This document shows, piece by piece, positions 24,638-57,269 of a stretch of DNA of 64,000 nucleotides. A program made the position numbers and the translations under genes. Source of the stretch: Norana najaformis (Eukaryota > Annelida > Clitellata > Crassiclitellata > Hormogastridae); assembly GCA_964023275.1 (NCBI GenBank), contig OZ029915.1:38713238-38777237 (forward strand), given 5' to 3'. Each line of letters starts with the position of its first letter. The stretch's first letter is position 1. Under the pieces are notes generated by a model that was not told the origin of the DNA, made no database searches, and saw nothing but the letters and a program-made list of their open reading frames with translations.

Positions 24638-26062
24638 CTACAGAATGTTTGTCGTGTTCATTCGAAGAGCTCGGATTCTGTCGATCACCGCTCGTTTCAG
24701 GCGTTCCTTGTATCTGTTCATGTGCTTGTCCTCGATAAACTGGAACTTTTCCGGGTGTTTCCTGAACGTTTCCATCGGGTCTGGGCGATAGTGATGCAAC
24801 ATGGCGAGTTCCGGTGGTAGTAGGTACTCCTCTGCTGTTTCGACCAGTTTGTACGGAAAGTGGATGTCGGCCTTGATGGTGTTTAAGGCGTTGTACATTG
24901 ACTTACAGCGTATCTTTCCCGGTGGGGTAACGACGTCTGTCCGCCAGAGAGATTGTTGCGATATGAGGTACGGTAGTTCTCCGGTCTTGTTCCTTCTGAA
25001 ATACGCATGCTGGAAGAGGTACGCACCGACTTTCGGTCTGTAAAGGAATTTCATCATCGCGGCCCAGTCGGGGTGCTTCCTGGGAGTCATGACCTCGTCT
25101 ATGTCCTGCACGGTGACGTATCGATGCCCGTATCCTGCCCTGTAAAGGCAGTCGTTGATGGCGCCATGTTGATTGAAGTAGTTGGTCAGTTTGTCCTGCG
25201 GGAACTTCCACTGGACGACGTGGATGTTTTCGGATGAGTTAGACAAGTACCCGGCGATGACCCGATCAACGTTTGCCTCCATGGAGTAGTTGTAGAACCA
25301 GGCAGACGTCATTCCAAGGATCTTGTGCAGCTCGATCCACTCGACGAACGCCTGCCAGCCCACCGAGTGTCCGTAAACAGGTGGAAAACAAACGGCGAAG
25401 GAGAATTCGTCGACGGTGGACGGGGAACGGTTGAGCACCATGAGAGTGTTGGAGGCCGGACCGCAAGCAGTTGGCGTGACCGCGACAGCGTATGGAATCC
25501 CAATGTCACCCACCACCGGCATTGGACATAAAATGAAGTGGGCGACCCACATCTGCGGGTAGAGGGTACTTGGATAGATTAGATCGTATATGGCTGGCCC
25601 AACTGTGATGGGGATCTCGTTGTCCTTGTACCACATTGTGCAGAACAGATTGCCGACAGCATTGACCTTCTCCTGCAGTCCGCTTGCAATTATCCGAATC
25701 AGCGGACCCCCAAGTTTTCTGCGATTGTCCAGAAAAGCCGAGAAGACCTGGACGTTCCTGTCAAAAACACCCTGCCACTCTTGTGGCTCTCGTTCGTCGG
25801 GAAACTCCGGCTGCTCGAACTTACTGTCACGACACCACTGGGCTCCGACATCTAGGTGAGGCAGCCTTTTGGTGGAAGGATGATCGACGAGGCGTAACTC
25901 CTCATTTTGCGGACGACTGCATTCAGGATAATCAGGTGACACTGCGCAGTCTACGAACCGTGTCTTGCGAGGTTCTGTCCGATGTCTATAAAAGACAATC
26001 AAGAGTATCGTCGTCACTGGAGCGAGGAAAACGAGCCATCGAAATCGTCTCGTGAACTTCAT
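24638..26062 (-). CDS. GT92 (DUF23) family glycosyltransferase, intronless, 474 aa
   Basis: Predicted Golgi type II membrane glycosyltransferase. Residues 1-8 are basic and cytosolic, 9-25 are a single membrane anchor (WLVFLAPVTTILLIVFY), then comes a stem, and the GT92 domain is about 220-450. Family marks are the CFPPVYGH entry (225-232), the WIELHKILGMTSAWFYNYS block (242-260), the DIDE acidic motif at 320-323 (the DxD-type metal/nucleotide-sugar site) and the LHHYRPDP segment (422-429). N-glycosylation sequons lie at 258, 275, 358 and 469. GT92 members such as worm GALT-1 add galactose to glycans; the acceptor here cannot be read. The frame is complete without introns, and an in-frame TGA at 26081-26083 (minus strand), 21 bases upstream of the ATG, supports the start. 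A noncoding 5' exon is possible (TTTGAGCAG just upstream). Confidence 0.92.
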   Translation of the reverse strand: MKFTRRFRWLVFLAPVTTILLIVFYRHRTEPRKTRFVDCAVSPDYPECSRPQNEELRLVDHPSTKRLPHLDVGAQWCRDSKFEQPEFPDEREPQEWQGVFDRNVQVFSAFLDNRRKLGGPLIRIIASGLQEKVNAVGNLFCTMWYKDNEIPITVGPAIYDLIYPSTLYPQMWVAHFILCPMPVVGDIGIPYAVAVTPTACGPASNTLMVLNRSPSTVDEFSFAVCFPPVYGHSVGWQAFVEWIELHKILGMTSAWFYNYSMEANVDRVIAGYLSNSSENIHVVQWKFPQDKLTNYFNQHGAINDCLYRAGYGHRYVTVQDIDEVMTPRKHPDWAAMMKFLYRPKVGAYLFQHAYFRRNKTGELPYLISQQSLWRTDVVTPPGKIRCKSMYNALNTIKADIHFPYKLVETAEEYLLPPELAMLHHYRPDPMETFRKHPEKFQFIEDKHMNRYKERLKRAVIDRIRALRMNTTNIL

Positions 26063-26422
26063 ACGAAAAATCTGCTCAAATCAATCAGTCAATCAATTAA
26101 TCATAGATCAGTCAAATTTCAGTATGTATAAGGGCTACTTTTCTCCCGCAGGACTGTCGATTTAATAGGCCAAACAGATGAATAATTAACTAAGTCCATG
26201 AGTTCTTCTGTCATCTTGAAAATTATCGTAGCTAATCAATACTGAACTGTTGCAGAGAACAAGCGACTTTGAACTTTATCAACTGTAATCTTAGGCTTAA
26301 TGTATCATGCTGCTTCTACATTTTATAGGCCTAATGATTGCTCGAATGCACAGCTCTACAAAAGCAAGCCTTAATTTTATATGTTAGCATATACGCCTGA
26401 TAAGTGTAACGCAGACTAATAT

Positions 26423-50000: not shown

Positions 50001-50584
50001 CAGGGTTAGGTTCTTATTGCCTCGTGTAGTTATTTCTGTCCCTTAACTTTTTGATGATGGAATGTAGTAGTTGGTCTCTTAAATGGAGTTGATAAGGAAT
50101 TGCAGACTAACGACTATTCCAGAGAAAGATTTCTTGAACTTATGATGTGTCTGGCCTGAAATAATCTATGGTTGTAAAGTTATATTACCTCATAAAACTG
50201 CCAAAGGCTTGTGAGATTAGCATCTGATTGACTCATTCGTGGACCTTTTATGAATAAACAGCTTAGCAGGAAATAACCCCATGGCACAATATATGTCGTT
50301 GTTTAGGCTCATTCTGCCTGTGGTTGTACTCCTTTCCAAATCTGGATTAGCTAGACCTCTAAATACTGTGGCTACGTAACGACAACATTTGTTAGTGTGA
50401 TAACCTAAAAACAGTATGAGCTAAAAGCTAACGGTTAAACCATTCTTAAAATTTGCTACTTTTGAAGTTATTTTATTTAGCAGTTTTAATAATAAGTTGG
50501 TTATAGACTAGACAAATCTTTTTGTAGGAGATAATTAATCTTGGGCATGATGTTAATTTTGCCAGGTGTCTTTGAAGCTGCAGC

Positions 50585-53492
50585 ATGCCACTGTTCAAAA
50601 AGGTGAGCGTAGACACTGGTTCTATGCTCGAGACACACTGCCGATCTCTGAGACGATGTCGCTTCCTCTTTCTGAAGGATCTGGATGTTTCGCAAGTGAT
50701 GGATTACATGGCACCAGATGAAGGTTTTCGACAGGAGCAGCGGGACACAATCTTTGCATGTCCAACACGTGAGCAACGGGTTGCAACATTCCTCGATTAT
50801 TTGGAGTCACGAGGGGAGCGAGCCTTTAGTCTGTTCGTGGAGGCACTAAAGGTGCGATACAAGCATCTGTACACGTATCTTGAGGAAACCATACAGACCA
50901 TTGATGAGTGGGATAACAGTCAGCATTCTGAGAACTCTTCTGTCAGTGGCTTGGTACTGCGCAGGATGTTACAGAAGCGCAGGATGGAATTGGCGGCACA
51001 GAGCGGTGAAGAAAGTGAAACTGTGATGGACAAGATCAGTGGCGACTTGCAGGGCAGTATCGCTAGTAATTACATAGACTGTTATTCGATCACTGCCAAA
51101 GGTCATCTACAAAAAGACAAATGGATCTTGCACATCGATGACTGTAAGCCCTGTTCTCTGCAGGGAAACGAAAAATCCTACATGGCAGTTGTCTGTGCAA
51201 ATCTCATCTGTAGGCAGATTGACTGGTCAACTTTTAAACTTCCACCAGATTTCAAAAGACCTCCAAGTGACTTAATACCAGCTTATGTGTTTGAAAAAGA
51301 AAGTAGCTATGTTTTTTCATCTATTTCAAGACAGACAAGTCGTGATGTGGGAGATTCTGTGATGACTGGGCACAGAAGGAGAGAGAAGACAGATCCCGGA
51401 AACAAATGTGATATGCGTGGTTGCATTCCTACTGCTTCTTTTCGTCTGCGTTCATCTATGCCACCACCACCTGTTCCTCCAAAACCAGAAAATTTGCCTA
51501 TGTGGGGCATAGCAGGCAGCCCACCTTTGCCAAAGCCACGTGCTGCATCCGATACTCTGAGTGTTACTCCACCACCGAGAACAACAAGCAAGATTTCACT
51601 TCCGAACGGTCAAGTCAAACCTCCGGTGCCAAAAAACAAGCCATGTATCCGCATACCTCATAGTCAGTCAGCTCACAGCGCTCTCACAACCCGAACAAAA
51701 GTTTCTGTCATTCCTTCTGTGTCTGAAGAAATGGAGGAAAAAACAGGAATTTCGAAATCATCTTCTTTAATTGAGAGAAACTTTGATGAGACAGACAGCG
51801 AAGATGCTGATCGTGTGTCACTTGATTATAACGTGAGCGTGGCCAGTACCCTGGAGCCAGAGGAAGAAGCAAAAGATGCTGGAGACGTGGAAAACGACAG
51901 TGATACTGCAAATGAAGATCCAGAAGCTGGAGGTTCTTTACTGACTGTGATCATCAATGGTTCTAGTTCAAGTCTTGGTCATTTGGACATCAATAAAAAT
52001 AGAACAAAAACCTCAACAGGAGAACAAATGCTGGAAGAATATACAGAGCAAGTGCTGGCTCAGAGACAAGATGAACTGGTGCCAGAGGTACAGATACAGG
52101 AAGAACCGATAAACAAAGAACAAGTTCAGGCTTGGGAACAAGAACAGACAGACGATCAAGCAGATAATGAACAGCAAATGGAACAACCATGTGATGTGCT
52201 GGCTTTGCCTGTTACTGGCACCCTGCTTTCTCCTGCAGAAGATTGCAAAGAGGAAGTCAAATATGATTTGCCACCAAGAGAAGACCTTGAAGATTATGGG
52301 TCACGGCAAATGGAAAATGATTCAGACTCACCAAATGCTAACGATCAGTGTACGCGTCTTCCAAAACCTTCTGTTGACCAACCAGCATTTGCGGATGATG
52401 AATTTTCGTCTGATAATTCATATTATGAGGAAATTGAACAGTTCTTTGTTGACTGCCCATCTCCTCCTGTACAGAATTGTGCGGCTTATCTTGATCCGTC
52501 TACGTCATCCTTGAGAAAGAGAGCCTCAAATCGATCTTCGTATCATTATACACTGAACGAGTTCAGAAAATCTGGCCGAAAGTTTCTATGCAGAAATTCA
52601 CTTCTGCTAGTAGAAACAGATTCTTCGTGTTTAGACTCAAAATCTGTAAGTGATCATCTGAATGCTGTAATTAATGGTGAACCACAGCAAGAGCAGGACT
52701 CATCAGATGTTTTCAAAGGTACAGTCTTAGGTTTTGATAAAGAAGGATTTGCTTTCTATATCCCTAGTCATTTGTTGAAGAAATATGGCGAGCCAGAAGG
52801 TGAACCGTGGTTTTATCCAACAAGTATGACATCAAGGCAGGCGTCTTTGTTTCTGTCCAGCGTGAAACAGGAAGGCTGTTTTGTCGTGTATTGTCCAGAA
52901 GACAATAAGTCCAATGTAGCCTACAACCTTTCAGTCTGTCTGGCAAACGGAGATGTTGTACACTATCACATCCTTGAAAACATTCATGGTGATTTTGGAA
53001 TAGAAGGACATGATCATACTTTTATGACTGTCAGTGAACTGGTAGAATACTTTAGGCGAAATAAGAGCTCGTTGGCAACTCGTCTCAGGCGCCCAATGAG
53101 ATGTGCAAAGCATCCCATAACACCAGGTTACCATTATGACATTCGGTACGAACTTAATCGCAGTGATCTGTCTCTGACTGGAAACATAATAGGTCAGGGC
53201 AACTTTGGGGTCGTCTGCTCTGGTCTGTATCGCAATACATCAGTTGCTGTCAAAGTGTTGCAGAAGTCAGATAATTTAACTCCTGCTGATGAAGACGATT
53301 TTATTGAAGAAGCACTTGCAATGATGGAGTTAAGACATGATCACATTGTGTGTCTGGTGGGAGTTAGTTGCAGGCTGCGTCCTTACTTCCTTGTTACAGA
53401 GTACATGCAAAAAGGGAATCTCAAAGATTGTTTGCGTAATGGTGTTATACAATTGGACAACATGGACATGCTGTTTTGTTGTCTGTATTCAG
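50585..53492 (+). CDS. Kinase gene exon 1: CARD, linker, SH2-like, kinase N-lobe
   Basis: Single 2.9-kb exon of 969 codons plus one base. The start ATG has A at -3 and an in-frame TGA 12 bases upstream. The CARD resembles the CARD9/10/11/14 type: VMDYMAPDEGFRQEQRD, then TREQRVATFLDYLESRGERA and FSLFVEALKVRYKHLYTYLE. The linker has PPPPVPPKPE (293-302, a class II SH3 ligand), PPLPKP (313-318) and a YEEI site (614-617). SH2: WFYPTSMTSRQAS start (742), CFVVYC (765-770) in the place of FLVRES, and HYHI (793-796) on strand D. Kinase N-lobe: GQGNFGVV glycine loop (870-877), catalytic lysine in VAVK (K890), helix C glutamate E909, hinge LVTEYMQKGNL. It ends at the donor CAG|GTATGT. Confidence 0.88.
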
Positions 53493-56400
53493 GTATGTAG
53501 TAATCAGAATGTTTGATAAATAATCTTAGATGATGAGATTGTTAGTTTTTGGATGATTTTAACTCTGTTGCATTTTGTAGGGAAGGTTATCCATAAGTAA
53601 GATCGAGTAGGGATTTATATATTGTGTTCAAATTATTAAAAGTGTGAGTCTTTTAAAGGTAACCTATATCACCACTGTATGATTCGCTTCTTTGCAAATT
53701 TGTCTCTATCATGTGATCACTTTGAGCAAATCCACTATGGCCTTTTCACTGCCTGTGCCCCCAGTTTCATTTTCATTTGAAACAGATGTACAAAGTTGAG
53801 GTCAGTAACTTGTGTAATAAATAGTGTTCACTCATAATTAATCAGTTTTACAGTTGTCCTCTGATTTCCATATTCTTGTATGGTTATGACATTACACTTA
53901 TCCTTTGTTGAAATTGATATCTACCTTAAGGGGAATTACGTCTTATAGATGATTTCAGTCTTTAGATAGAGTTTGAAATTATTATTATTTAAGACAAACA
54001 TGCATAAAGCAATGACCTTACTCTACCTATTTGGCACCAATTGAATTTAGTATATAGTTATCTTATCTTTGGGGTTGAAAGGAGTAATGGAGATTTTCTG
54101 CTGCAAGAGACAACATCATGAGCATGTTTAAAGCATCAGGTGCAAAGAGTCCAAACTGGAATACTTTAAGTAGGGTTCACAGTTCAACAAACTTTGATGT
54201 ATCAGGAACTCAGTTATAGCCAGTCCACAGGTTGGTTGTTAGAAGTAAACTGCTGGAAAGAAGCGATGACATTCATGAAGATTCCTTGCTGTTATTCCTT
54301 GTGCAATATTGCTGAGTCATAGGGGTGTCAAAACAGATGTTATTAAATGGTAAAATACACTAAATGACTAATGGATCCTTATACACTATTGAAACTTTTA
54401 TTTATTCAATTTAAACAACACCAGTGATGGCAGCCAATGAGATCTTGTTTAAAATCTCGAAAGTCGGTAAATGCATAATTAAGAGCCGAAAATTAAACAG
54501 TTGTTCAACAGGCCTACTGAGTCGCAATACTTAAATAAACAAACAAGTTATTTGATTGAAGTGAAATAGCTATATATGGCATGATCTAGAGCTGTACCTG
54601 GTTTCATGATATACCGTATGCACTCTTCTTATTTCCTTGAGAAAAAGAGCCTCAAATCAATCTTCATTTGGGTAATGCAATTGACTGTAAGCTCAGAATA
54701 GATGGAATCCTCATACATACAGTTTGTTAGAGTCGAAAATATGAATAAACTAAATTAGGAGTTTTGAAGTAAATTAAGATGTGAAGTTCTGAGGTAAATT
54801 GAGATGCCTGATCTTAAAGATGTTAAATAATGTTTCAGAACTTTCAGTTGACAAGATATGCATTATTTTTAGTTCTTAAATATGTTTTGTTTAGTACAAT
54901 TCTTTTAATATAATCAGAACAGCATTTGGTTCATGAGCTAGAAAGCTTGATTACATGATTCTGTATTTATATATCTGGTCTATGGGCCACCCAGACCTCC
55001 TTAACTGTTATCTTTTTGGGGCCACCCTGTACATTTTGGTTTCACAACCTTCGCCCCTGAGGCAATGTCAGGTAGCCACAAGAGGTTGAAGACTACTGAC
55101 AATATGATAGACTGAAACTCCATTAATCGTCTCTGAATACCTAACCACCTACCAGAGCCTAAGATTTTGAGATGATCGATAGCCCTTTGTCTCCGATTTC
55201 TGAAGCTATCACGAATTCTCGTAGACTCTGAGGAAATAACATTCTTGTGGCAGTATGAGTTGGTGTGAGCTACCACTGTCTGCTGCATGGCCGCCAGTTT
55301 GCCTCCAGTGATTACCATTACTAACCAGAGCTGTTTAATGTACCAGCATCCTGTTGCAGAGGTTAATACTGCATCGTCATTCCATTTATCTTTCACTGGT
55401 CTGAGCTGAACTGCCACTGTGTAGGCAACACATGTAATGATCAAGTATTTGTTTATCTCAGGGTGCAATTAGAAGTGTTGCCCAGCGACTAGTGGGTGGA
55501 TTGGTGGCCTGGATAAATGATTTTGTCCAATTCCAGAGTGGAGTTCAACTAGATAACAACTCCTTAAAGAACACCATACGGTCTTTCAGTTCCTGCAAAG
55601 TGGTGCAATGTTAGCTTGAAGATTAAGAGTTCAGTTGTATTTCTTTTCGATTGCTTCATTAACCAGTATTCGGCATTTCTCTGGTATGTTGCAAGCTTTT
55701 CGGCAGAACAGATAAGGAACATAAGTGAATGCTTTAGAACCTCTTATTATCTGGACTGCCTGCAATGTTATCAGAAAACTTGCAGCACTCTGGTGCACTG
55801 TCGGTTAAGTGGTGCAACAGTCAGTTTGCAAAGTTACACAACAGTCAAACTGAAGAGGGACAAGATTCAGCTGTGTTGGCAAGACGAGGAAAGTTGCTTT
55901 TTAACAACTTTAGCTGGACTGGCATTGACTTGAGAATTGTTTGCAAGAATGCACTGGATAACCCATTACCATCACATTCTGTTGATGTTCTTTTGACAAT
56001 AATCTGTTCAGACTCTTAAAACATGACCGAGGGCCAGCACTGTTTAACTGTGTTTGTCACACCATAAGGAATTTCATCCGTTTTTTTTCATGTCTAGCTC
56101 TGCCTGACCATAATCTTGTTAAAGACATTTTGCTTATCTTCCAGCTATTTTTCCAATTACTGTAAATATAAATCTTGGAAATTTCTCAGCACTACACAAA
56201 GCCTCATCAGAGAACAGCTTATGCACTGGCACAGTATAAAATCAAGCCTGCAAGAGTTCATTTTCAGTGCCACATGGGGTCAAATACCAAATAAAATACA
56301 GGTTGTGGTGCATTGCACTTTTTCTTATTGTTGAATGTGTAATTACTTTGTTTAATTTTTCAGTTGGTGTCTGCGATGCAATACCTCGAGAGTCTTCACT

Positions 56401-57269
56401 TCATGCTGCACAGAGACCTGGCAGCACGAAACTTTCTAGTCGATGACCACCTAAGTATTAAGCTGGCTGACTTCGGGAGGGCACGACTTGTTTCTGACGA
56501 CTACTACCAGGCTCCTCGGACTGAGAAACTCTGCATCAAATGGGCGTCTCCGGAAGTGCTAATCTACTCCCACTACAGCACAAAATCAGATGTTTGGGCG
56601 CTCGGCGTGGTGTTTTGGGAAGTGTTCAGTTCAGGTGCACGACCATTCAGTTTATTTTCCGGTGAACAGACAGCTATGTATGTTACAGGAGGTGGTCGAC
56701 TGGATAAGCCACCAGGATGCCCTCCAGATCTTTATGACATGATGAAGAGCTGCTGGCTGGAAGATCCTGATGATCGGCCATCGTTCCACGATCTTGACGA
56801 GATTCTAAAAAGCAAATCGAGCATCTATTACTCAAAACCATCAATTCAAACACTGAATCACAGGCGTCCTGTATCTGATGCTCCCAAACAGGTGTCCCCT
56901 CTTCCACCAAAGCAGAAAACTCCATCTGGCAAATCCGTCACTTCTCCGACTTCAACTGGAACCAATTCGCGCAAGTCTAACGTTCGTGATAAAAGCTCCA
57001 AATGCGACCCAACAAATGAAAATCTGCTGAAGAGTAAGGGCGACACACGATACATTCTTAACCACGAAGGCCCGTTCACAAACTACTTATCTGATATTTC
57101 CATCGCCACTGTCTCATCAGAAATCATGGACATCGACCAAGATGTTTCACGAGGTGATCGAATTCGAAAAAGTTTGCGTAGGTTAATCAATAAAAAGTCC
57201 AAGACAAAGATAAATGAACTTGGTGGCAAAGTAGTCCATGTTTCACAAGACTACCCTGCAGCACACTAA
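50585..57269 (+). CDS. CARD-SH2-tyrosine kinase (gene level)
   Basis: Predicted cytoplasmic non-receptor tyrosine kinase of about 1270 residues in two recognised coding exons (50585-53492 and 56364-57269). Domain order: CARD (about 15-102), an unassigned conserved-looking block (about 160-226), proline-rich and acidic linkers, SH2-like domain (about 742-835), kinase domain (about 855 to exon 2 residue 150) and a basic Ser/Thr-rich tail. There is no signal peptide or membrane segment. By family knowledge a CARD joins oligomeric signalling platforms through CARD-CARD contacts; fused to a kinase it could couple assembly to tyrosine phosphorylation (inference). The two exons do not join in phase as written (donor after one base of a codon, acceptor in phase 0), so the model has either an indel or a missing small exon. 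It converges with the DEX1-like gene downstream. Confidence 0.85.
53493..56363 (+). other. Intron inside the kinase domain
   Basis: 2.87-kb intron with GTATGT donor and TTTTTCAG acceptor, interrupting helix E just before the catalytic loop. It holds a 155-codon minus-strand frame (55001-55468) next to TACAGGGTGGCCCC, which resembles ends of small DNA transposons, and open plus-strand stretches at 55.46-56.02 kb. None is recognised. A segment at about 54635-54670 resembles a piece of exon 1. A small in-phase exon of 3n+2 bases may be hidden here. Confidence 0.5.
56364..57269 (+). CDS. Kinase gene exon 2: catalytic loop, C-lobe and tail
   Basis: 301 residues after the acceptor TTTTTCAG. It starts in helix E (LVSAMQYLES) and carries the catalytic loop HRDLAARN (16-23), DFG (36-38), paired activation-loop tyrosines (47-48), KWASPEVL (APE replaced by SPE, 62-64), DVWALGVVFWEVFSSG and the closing CWLEDPDDRPSF motif. 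HRDLAARN, rather than HRDLRAAN, argues against the Src family proper and fits Fer, Csk, Abl or Syk-like kinases. All catalytic residues are present, so activity is expected. The last 150 residues are a low-complexity Ser/Thr/Lys tail with PLPPKQ and a basic RKSLRRLINKKSK stretch. Stop is TAA at 57267-57269. Confidence 0.92.
   Translation: MVSAMQYLESLHFMLHRDLAARNFLVDDHLSIKLADFGRARLVSDDYYQAPRTEKLCIKWASPEVLIYSHYSTKSDVWALGVVFWEVFSSGARPFSLFSGEQTAMYVTGGGRLDKPPGCPPDLYDMMKSCWLEDPDDRPSFHDLDEILKSKSSIYYSKPSIQTLNHRRPVSDAPKQVSPLPPKQKTPSGKSVTSPTSTGTNSRKSNVRDKSSKCDPTNENLLKSKGDTRYILNHEGPFTNYLSDISIATVSSEIMDIDQDVSRGDRIRKSLRRLINKKSKTKINELGGKVVHVSQDYPAAH

Follow-up and report, generated by a model that had tools for sequence, protein, structure and literature searches.

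The window analysed here is the whole 64,000-nucleotide stretch of contig OZ029915.1 of the annelid Norana najaformis (assembly GCA_964023275.1, positions 38,713,238 to 38,777,237 of the forward strand). It holds a gene with two coding exons predicted to encode, in a single chain, an N-terminal CARD (a domain from which immune and cell-death assemblies are built), a long linker, an SH2-like domain and a tyrosine kinase, and this gene has relatives of the same order elsewhere in the genome. Its features, in positions of the window, are the following.

50585..53492, + strand: coding exon 1, an open frame followed by a donor GT at 53493 and encoding the CARD, the linker, a stretch like the end of an SH3 domain, the SH2-like domain and the kinase N-lobe
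50645..50887, + strand: CARD, residues 21-101 (Pfam PF00619)
51068..51301, + strand: conserved block YIDCY...YVFEKE, residues 162-239, in six of six members
51461..51487, + strand: proline-rich motif PPPPVPPKP, residues 293-301, with PPxPPK (295-300) invariant in six of six members
52421..52438, + strand: YYEEIE motif, with Tyr614 invariant in the six-member alignment
52487..52498, + strand: YLDP motif, in five of six members, with a gap in C12
52718..52795, + strand: SH3-end-like stretch preceding the SH2-like domain (starts of the phmmer alignments of BTK, SRC and HCK)
52811..53053, + strand: SH2-like domain, residues 743-823 (Pfam, 19.1 bits)
52889..52891, + strand: Tyr769, at the position of the SH2 beta-B5 (FLVRES) arginine; Tyr in six of six members
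53183..53473, + strand: tyrosine kinase N-lobe, residues 867-963 (Pfam PF07714)
53474..53477, + strand: TTTT run, one base longer than in the paralogues, which breaks the frame to exon 2
53493..56363, + strand: predicted intron, GT...AG, in kinase helix alpha-E; same place, phase 0, in C1a
56364..57269, + strand: coding exon 2, kinase C-lobe and C-terminal tail (Pfam PF07714)
56409..56417, + strand: HRD catalytic motif
56469..56477, + strand: DFG motif
57159..57188, + strand: basic motif RIRKSLRRLI of the C-terminal tail, similar in the aligned paralogues

Exon 1 lies in an open frame of 974 codons without a stop (50576-53497, + strand), for which a chance origin is ruled out: in 200 simulated sequences of 64 kb with the dinucleotide make-up of the window (three frames, one strand), the longest open frame reached only 209 codons. 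Searched against Pfam, whose curated cut-offs are 23.9 bits for CARD and 21 bits for SH2, the translated exon contains a CARD at residues 21-101 (PF00619, 54.2 bits, E 1.5e-14), in the segment 15-102 where the original prediction, made from the letters alone, had expected one. After a linker of ~640 residues come an SH2 match at residues 743-823, slightly under cut-off (PF00017, 19.1 bits, E 0.0014), and a tyrosine kinase N-lobe at residues 867-963 (PF07714, E 8.8e-19). The frame and these matches agree with the earlier proposal of one open exon holding a CARD, a linker of more than 600 residues and a kinase N-lobe. The SH2 fold that had been proposed with them falls short of the Pfam cut-off in this copy; two paralogues lie above it, and the region is covered by the alignment of BTK to residues 718-964 (E 6.7e-26, phmmer against PDB), the best match, followed by ABL1, SRC, HCK and CSK. 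In the same search the alignment of SRC starts at residue 721 and that of HCK at 704, and the start of the BTK alignment at residue 718 presumably corresponds to the end of its SH3 segment; at E<=1, no Pfam match to SH3, PH or BTK motif was found in exon 1. Regarding the C-lobe, it is present in exon 2 as had been foreseen (PF07714, E 4e-48) but is not in frame with exon 1 as assembled. Both exons display a codon-position bias in G+C which is not found in the intron, and they are devoid of stops apart from the frame break. From the sequence, it is near certain that this architecture, with a CARD and a tyrosine kinase fused in one chain, is real.

When the exon 1 protein was used to query the genome from which the window comes (17 contigs, 608 Mb), five further loci stood out clearly (E 3e-111 to 5e-88); outside the resulting six genes, the best match was at E 1e-7 (47 of 86 candidates scored). 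Using the protein of the member on C5 as query, the same six genes were recovered, with best segments of 283 to 509 bits for the other members, and the next kinase scored 118 bits (38 of 649 candidates scored). The predicted family comprises at least six genes, at least five of them CARD-bearing, and its members are named here after their contigs: the window gene on C3, C1a and C1b on C1, and C5, C11 and C12. Single frames of 1295, 1229 and 1156 amino acids encode C1b, C5 and C11, respectively, each with a CARD (29.9, 29.1 and 31.8 bits), an SH2 match (23.2, 18.6 and 19.4 bits) and a whole kinase, while C1a has the two-exon layout of the window gene, with a CARD of 26.9 bits and both kinase halves. 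The CARD thus scores over its cut-off in five members, C12 being the exception, with a frame encoding an SH2 match (22.1 bits) and the kinase. Three of the four CARD-bearing paralogues also share the start of the window protein, which begins MPLFKK at the first ATG of the frame (50585), in the form MP[LI]F[KR]K; the start of C1b differs. As predicted from these frames, the order CARD, linker, SH2-like domain and tyrosine kinase is kept in the paralogues, which makes a direct link from a CARD to a tyrosine kinase the natural reading.

Of note, the kinase is without intron in C12, C1b, C5 and C11 (L020-L023) and has one in helix alpha-E in the window gene and C1a, a pattern that could reflect a gain in one line or a loss by retroposition in the others. 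Downstream of C1b (L021, 8266-9546) lie frames that resemble, by eye, a reverse transcriptase of the long interspersed nuclear element (LINE) type.

Between members, the mean proportions of nonsynonymous (pN) and synonymous (pS) differences are 0.38/0.81 for the CARD, 0.29/0.83 for the SH2, 0.32/0.81 for the N-lobe and 0.28/0.81 for the C-lobe, the linker being far less constrained (0.60/0.78). Synonymous sites are saturated (mean pS ~0.8) and pN lies well below them, which points to old copies kept under purifying selection, the CARD included. In a tree of the five CARDs, and in one of the six SH2-kinase modules with the ingroup only, the window gene and C1a stand apart from C1b, C5 and C11; the support of this split is moderate (93/93 and 82-84/87, without any starred branch). 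Such concordance is as expected if CARD and kinase had been joined since before the duplications. With four of the genome's receptor-like kinases as outgroup, the six members form one clade (100/100).

Comparison of the SH2-kinase module of C12 with the PDB gave BTK first (255 bits), then ABL1 (205) and SRC (198), a two-copy EGFR chain summing to 238. When only a C-lobe is compared, BTK falls behind an EGFR chain and a construct of a Src-Abl ancestor. Among the solved kinases shown, tyrosine kinases match best, and the family is predicted to belong with the BTK/ABL/SRC type of cytoplasmic tyrosine kinase. HRD...N, DFG, the glycine loop and the beta-3 lysine (VAVK) are all kept in the window gene (read across the frame break), C1a and C12, whose catalytic loops read HRDLAARN, HRDLASRN and HRDIAARN, respectively. 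C1b has HRA and NFD with the lysine and asparagine kept; C5 has HRS, serine for the asparagine and GFD, with the lysine kept; C11 has serine for the lysine, HRS, serine for the asparagine and RFE. By motif, these three of the six members are putative pseudokinases. Distinct from the family, loci L058-L061 each hold, in one exon, a frame of 390-518 residues in which a membrane segment, as judged by eye, precedes a tyrosine-kinase domain; the kinase of L060 has HGD in place of HRD.

The SH2-like domain has its own peculiarity. Its profile score exceeds 21 bits in two of the six members (C1b and C12) and is 18.6-19.4 in the window gene, C5 and C11; for C1a, no Pfam match was found at E<=1, and its SH2 region is 68% identical to that of the window gene over 105 residues. 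In all six members, the FLVRES arginine, which is the phosphotyrosine-binding arginine of SH2 domains, is replaced by tyrosine (GCF[VLI]VY). At the alpha-A and beta-D positions, the arginine of the former is kept in five members, with lysine in C5, and the histidine of the latter in all six. As a control, the arginine pattern [FY][LIVMYF][VILAF]R, sought in any frame, is present at all 20 other SH2 loci returned out of the 131 SH2 matches of the genome, about 18 times within a recognisable SH2 (outside it in at least two, L033 and L042). The loss of the arginine in the whole family argues against a canonical reading of phosphotyrosine by this domain, and leaves the usual mode of SH2 binding unsupported for the window protein.

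Regarding the linker, 22 of its 598 residues are invariant in the six members, and these include the tyrosines Y163 and Y167 (YIDCY), Y234 and Y614 (YYEEIE); Y635 (YLDP) is kept in five. Tyrosine is enriched among the invariant columns (4 of 22, against 14 of the 598 linker residues; Fisher p 0.001, in a test chosen post hoc). The motifs YEEI and YxxP resemble ligands of Src-type (pYEEI) and Crk-type SH2 domains. The block at residues 162-239, present in all six members with 30-33% identity to the window copy, corresponds to no Pfam family at E<=1, and comparison of its sequence with the PDB gave nothing below E 0.71. A piece of the linker (52508-52539) has a 32-base copy, 94% identical, in the intron at 54634-54665; its interpretation as a duplicated exon was rejected, the copy being isolated and its flanks without similarity.

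The CARD exon of the window is the second by Pfam score among the 150 scored of 507 candidates genome-wide. Whether the single sequence or the five-member profile is compared with solved chains, the nearest CARDs are those of caspase-9, NOD1 and APAF1, which rank over CARD9/11; the CARD9/11-type identity first proposed for this domain is consequently rejected in favour of these relatives. The CARD of RIPK2 is a weak match (E 0.013 or worse). The genome holds at least 150 CARD exons and, among the 150 listed, ~125 form long arrays on C2 and C8; those of C2 at 5-16 Mb and of C8 (L003, L006, L007) comprise some adjoining pairs, as judged by eye.

From the domain order, the paralogy, the continuity of the frames, the loss of the SH2 arginine and the motifs, all of them read from the sequence, we infer the following mechanism, to which we give a probability of about 0.5: clustering through the CARD would activate the kinase in trans, the linker would supply docking sites and the pseudokinases would tune the output. 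The CARD would join or nucleate a CARD assembly, in which crowding would make kinase domains meet and autophosphorylate in trans. Once active, the kinase could phosphorylate the tyrosines of its own linker (YxxCY, YVxx, YEEI, YLDP) as well as neighbours in the assembly, and the phosphorylated linker might then offer docking sites to ordinary SH2 proteins. The arginine-less SH2 may serve as a structural clamp beside the kinase instead of a phosphotyrosine reader, and the pseudokinase siblings may co-assemble through their CARDs as allosteric partners, scaffolds or brakes. Several observations weigh on the other side. No CARD partner has been identified for the family, and C12 has no CARD in its own frame or in ~19 kb upstream, as searched with a five-sequence CARD profile. 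Half of the family is dead by motif, so that phosphorylation may not be the main output, and C1a, whose motifs are intact, has Trp-Phe at the activation-loop tyrosine present in the other five. When outgroups are included in the tree, the internal order is weak (68/83 for the dead members, 49/27 for the intact ones), and the kinase may have died once or several times. Lastly, the frame of the window copy is broken as assembled, and the case for the family rests on the paralogues, among which C1a has the same layout in frame.

This break raises an alternative for the window copy only, compatible with CARD-driven activation in the rest of the family, namely that it is a dying gene whose CARD-linker-SH2 fragment would be dominant-negative or inert. 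Exon 1 (50585-53492) counts 2908 bases, one too many for a phase-0 acceptor at 56364, and when C11 and C1a are set beside it by eye, the extra base falls in the TTTT run at 53474-53477, C11 being continuous through the place of the intron and C1a having a predicted phase-0 splice there. Splicing does not offer a way round: with donors taken from 53380-53560 and acceptors from 56200-56449, nine in-frame GT-AG joins keep HRDLAARN, and none of them, by eye, gives helix alpha-E the length it has in the paralogues. The break could stem from an error of assembly, from a minor allele or from a genuine, recent lesion; if real, it would lead to a truncated product without the C-lobe. As a difference of one base in a T run may have either of the first two origins, and as no further stop is found in exon 1 or 2 and the motifs of exon 2 are kept, we consider a dying gene possible, with the odds somewhat against it.

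Another explanation, which we find rather improbable, is that of a family of CARD scaffolds and pseudokinases in which the SH2-like and kinase folds act as binding modules and catalysis is secondary or fading. It would account for the SH2 arginine being gone from every member and for three members without catalytic motifs still having conserved C-lobes (61%, 58% and 61% identity to the window for C1b, C5 and C11, respectively), but it fits poorly with the three others, which keep every catalytic motif checked, and with the C-lobes of the window gene and C1a, 72% identical with pN 0.19 and pS 0.89. Unlikely, too, is a CARD unconnected with immune or death assemblies, which would only dimerise or autoinhibit an ordinary kinase of growth or adhesion. 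The want of an identified CARD partner would suit such a role, as would the lack of any MALT1_Ig match in the genome, in a search which returned no control match either; this CARD ranks second, however, of the 150 scored, the genome holding no fewer than 150 CARD exons, and its nearest relatives are those of caspase-9, APAF1 and NOD1. Finally, that two separate transcripts, one for the CARD segment and one for the kinase, share an open frame by chance, a concern that the original prediction had itself raised and with which the CARD-less C12 would agree, is highly improbable because in C1b, C5 and C11 a single frame runs from the CARD through conserved linker motifs and the SH2-like domain to the end of the kinase, and because CARD, SH2-like domain and N-lobe share a frame in five of six members on four chromosomes (C1, C3, C5 and C11).

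Apart from this gene, the window contains a 480-codon frame (24641-26080, - strand) encoding a domain of glycosyltransferase family 92 (124 bits). Elsewhere in the genome, PF16915, the linker family of annelid extracellular haemoglobin, has 29 matches (best 118 bits), with a weak-to-moderate cluster at C5 34.4-36.9 Mb; its best exon matches haemoglobin linker L1 in the PDB (2gtl, presumably of Lumbricus; 186.8 bits, 120 residues). These linkers speak for an annelid, probably an earthworm, and against the mollusc origin at which the original prediction hinted; a search for PF14830, directed at that origin, gave no match, but as it returned no control match either it carries no weight by itself.

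Taken one step further, activation by CARD clustering could amount to an undescribed type of signalling, in which kinases and pseudokinases would co-polymerise by their CARDs and nucleation would be written as phosphorylation of the linker (YEEI, YLDP), with no need of PKC, of a receptor or of a separate adaptor, the SH2 acting as an internal clamp. We advance this tentatively. If true, it would link the very large CARD repertoire of this animal to SH2-based outputs, provide, with active and dead versions at hand, a natural test of whether a CARD filament is a platform for kinase activation, and allow testing what an SH2 serves once its phosphotyrosine arginine is gone. The family is also a candidate module for annelid immunity or cell death. 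The original prediction knew of no described kinase with the order CARD, SH2, tyrosine kinase, and we found no description of it among the titles and abstract openings listed from the open-licence PubMed Central (PMC) literature, although papers or database entries may exist. "CARD" never occurs as a whole word in the main text of the oyster kinome paper, which mentions five unique tyrosine kinases, given without their domains in the passages concerned, among which an analogue could hide (PMC4883820). All the parts of the protein are known domains, and there is a real chance that its way of working is new.

Among known systems, BTK and the Tec kinases resemble the family in their order SH3-SH2-kinase, BTK being the best solved match for the SH2-kinase module but not for the C-lobe alone, and a proline-rich stretch upstream, which is a Tec feature, is found in the family as well. 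The family differs from them by a CARD in place of the PH-BTK N-terminus, by the linker of ~640 residues, by an SH3 of which only the end is recognisable and by the loss of the SH2 arginine. RIPK2 likewise unites a kinase and a CARD in one chain, but it is a kinase of Ser/Thr type with a C-terminal CARD and no SH2, whereas in the window family the CARD is N-terminal and the best solved kinase matches are tyrosine kinases. Of the solved CARDs, those of caspase-9, APAF1 and NOD1 come nearest in sequence; they are joined to protease, NB-ARC or NACHT modules and to no kinase. Pyk2, a kinase not known to carry a CARD, offers another comparison. It phosphorylates ASC at Tyr146, within the CARD, and moves to ASC specks (PMC5087076). 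Tyrosine phosphorylation within a CARD-containing speck is the feature that Pyk2/Syk-ASC would share with the window family (PMC5087076), with the difference that the kinase is recruited there in trans and that both halves would act here in cis. The CARD9/CARD11-BCL10-MALT1 pathway also ties tyrosine kinases to a CARD assembly in immunity. Syk/Zap70 reach CARD9/11 through PKC, as separate proteins, in vertebrates, and Syk homologues co-occur with CARD-CC/BCL10 in invertebrates (PMC5978004). The kinase there stands upstream and acts on other proteins, whereas here kinase and CARD would belong to one protein, with a CARD resembling those of caspase-9 and APAF1.

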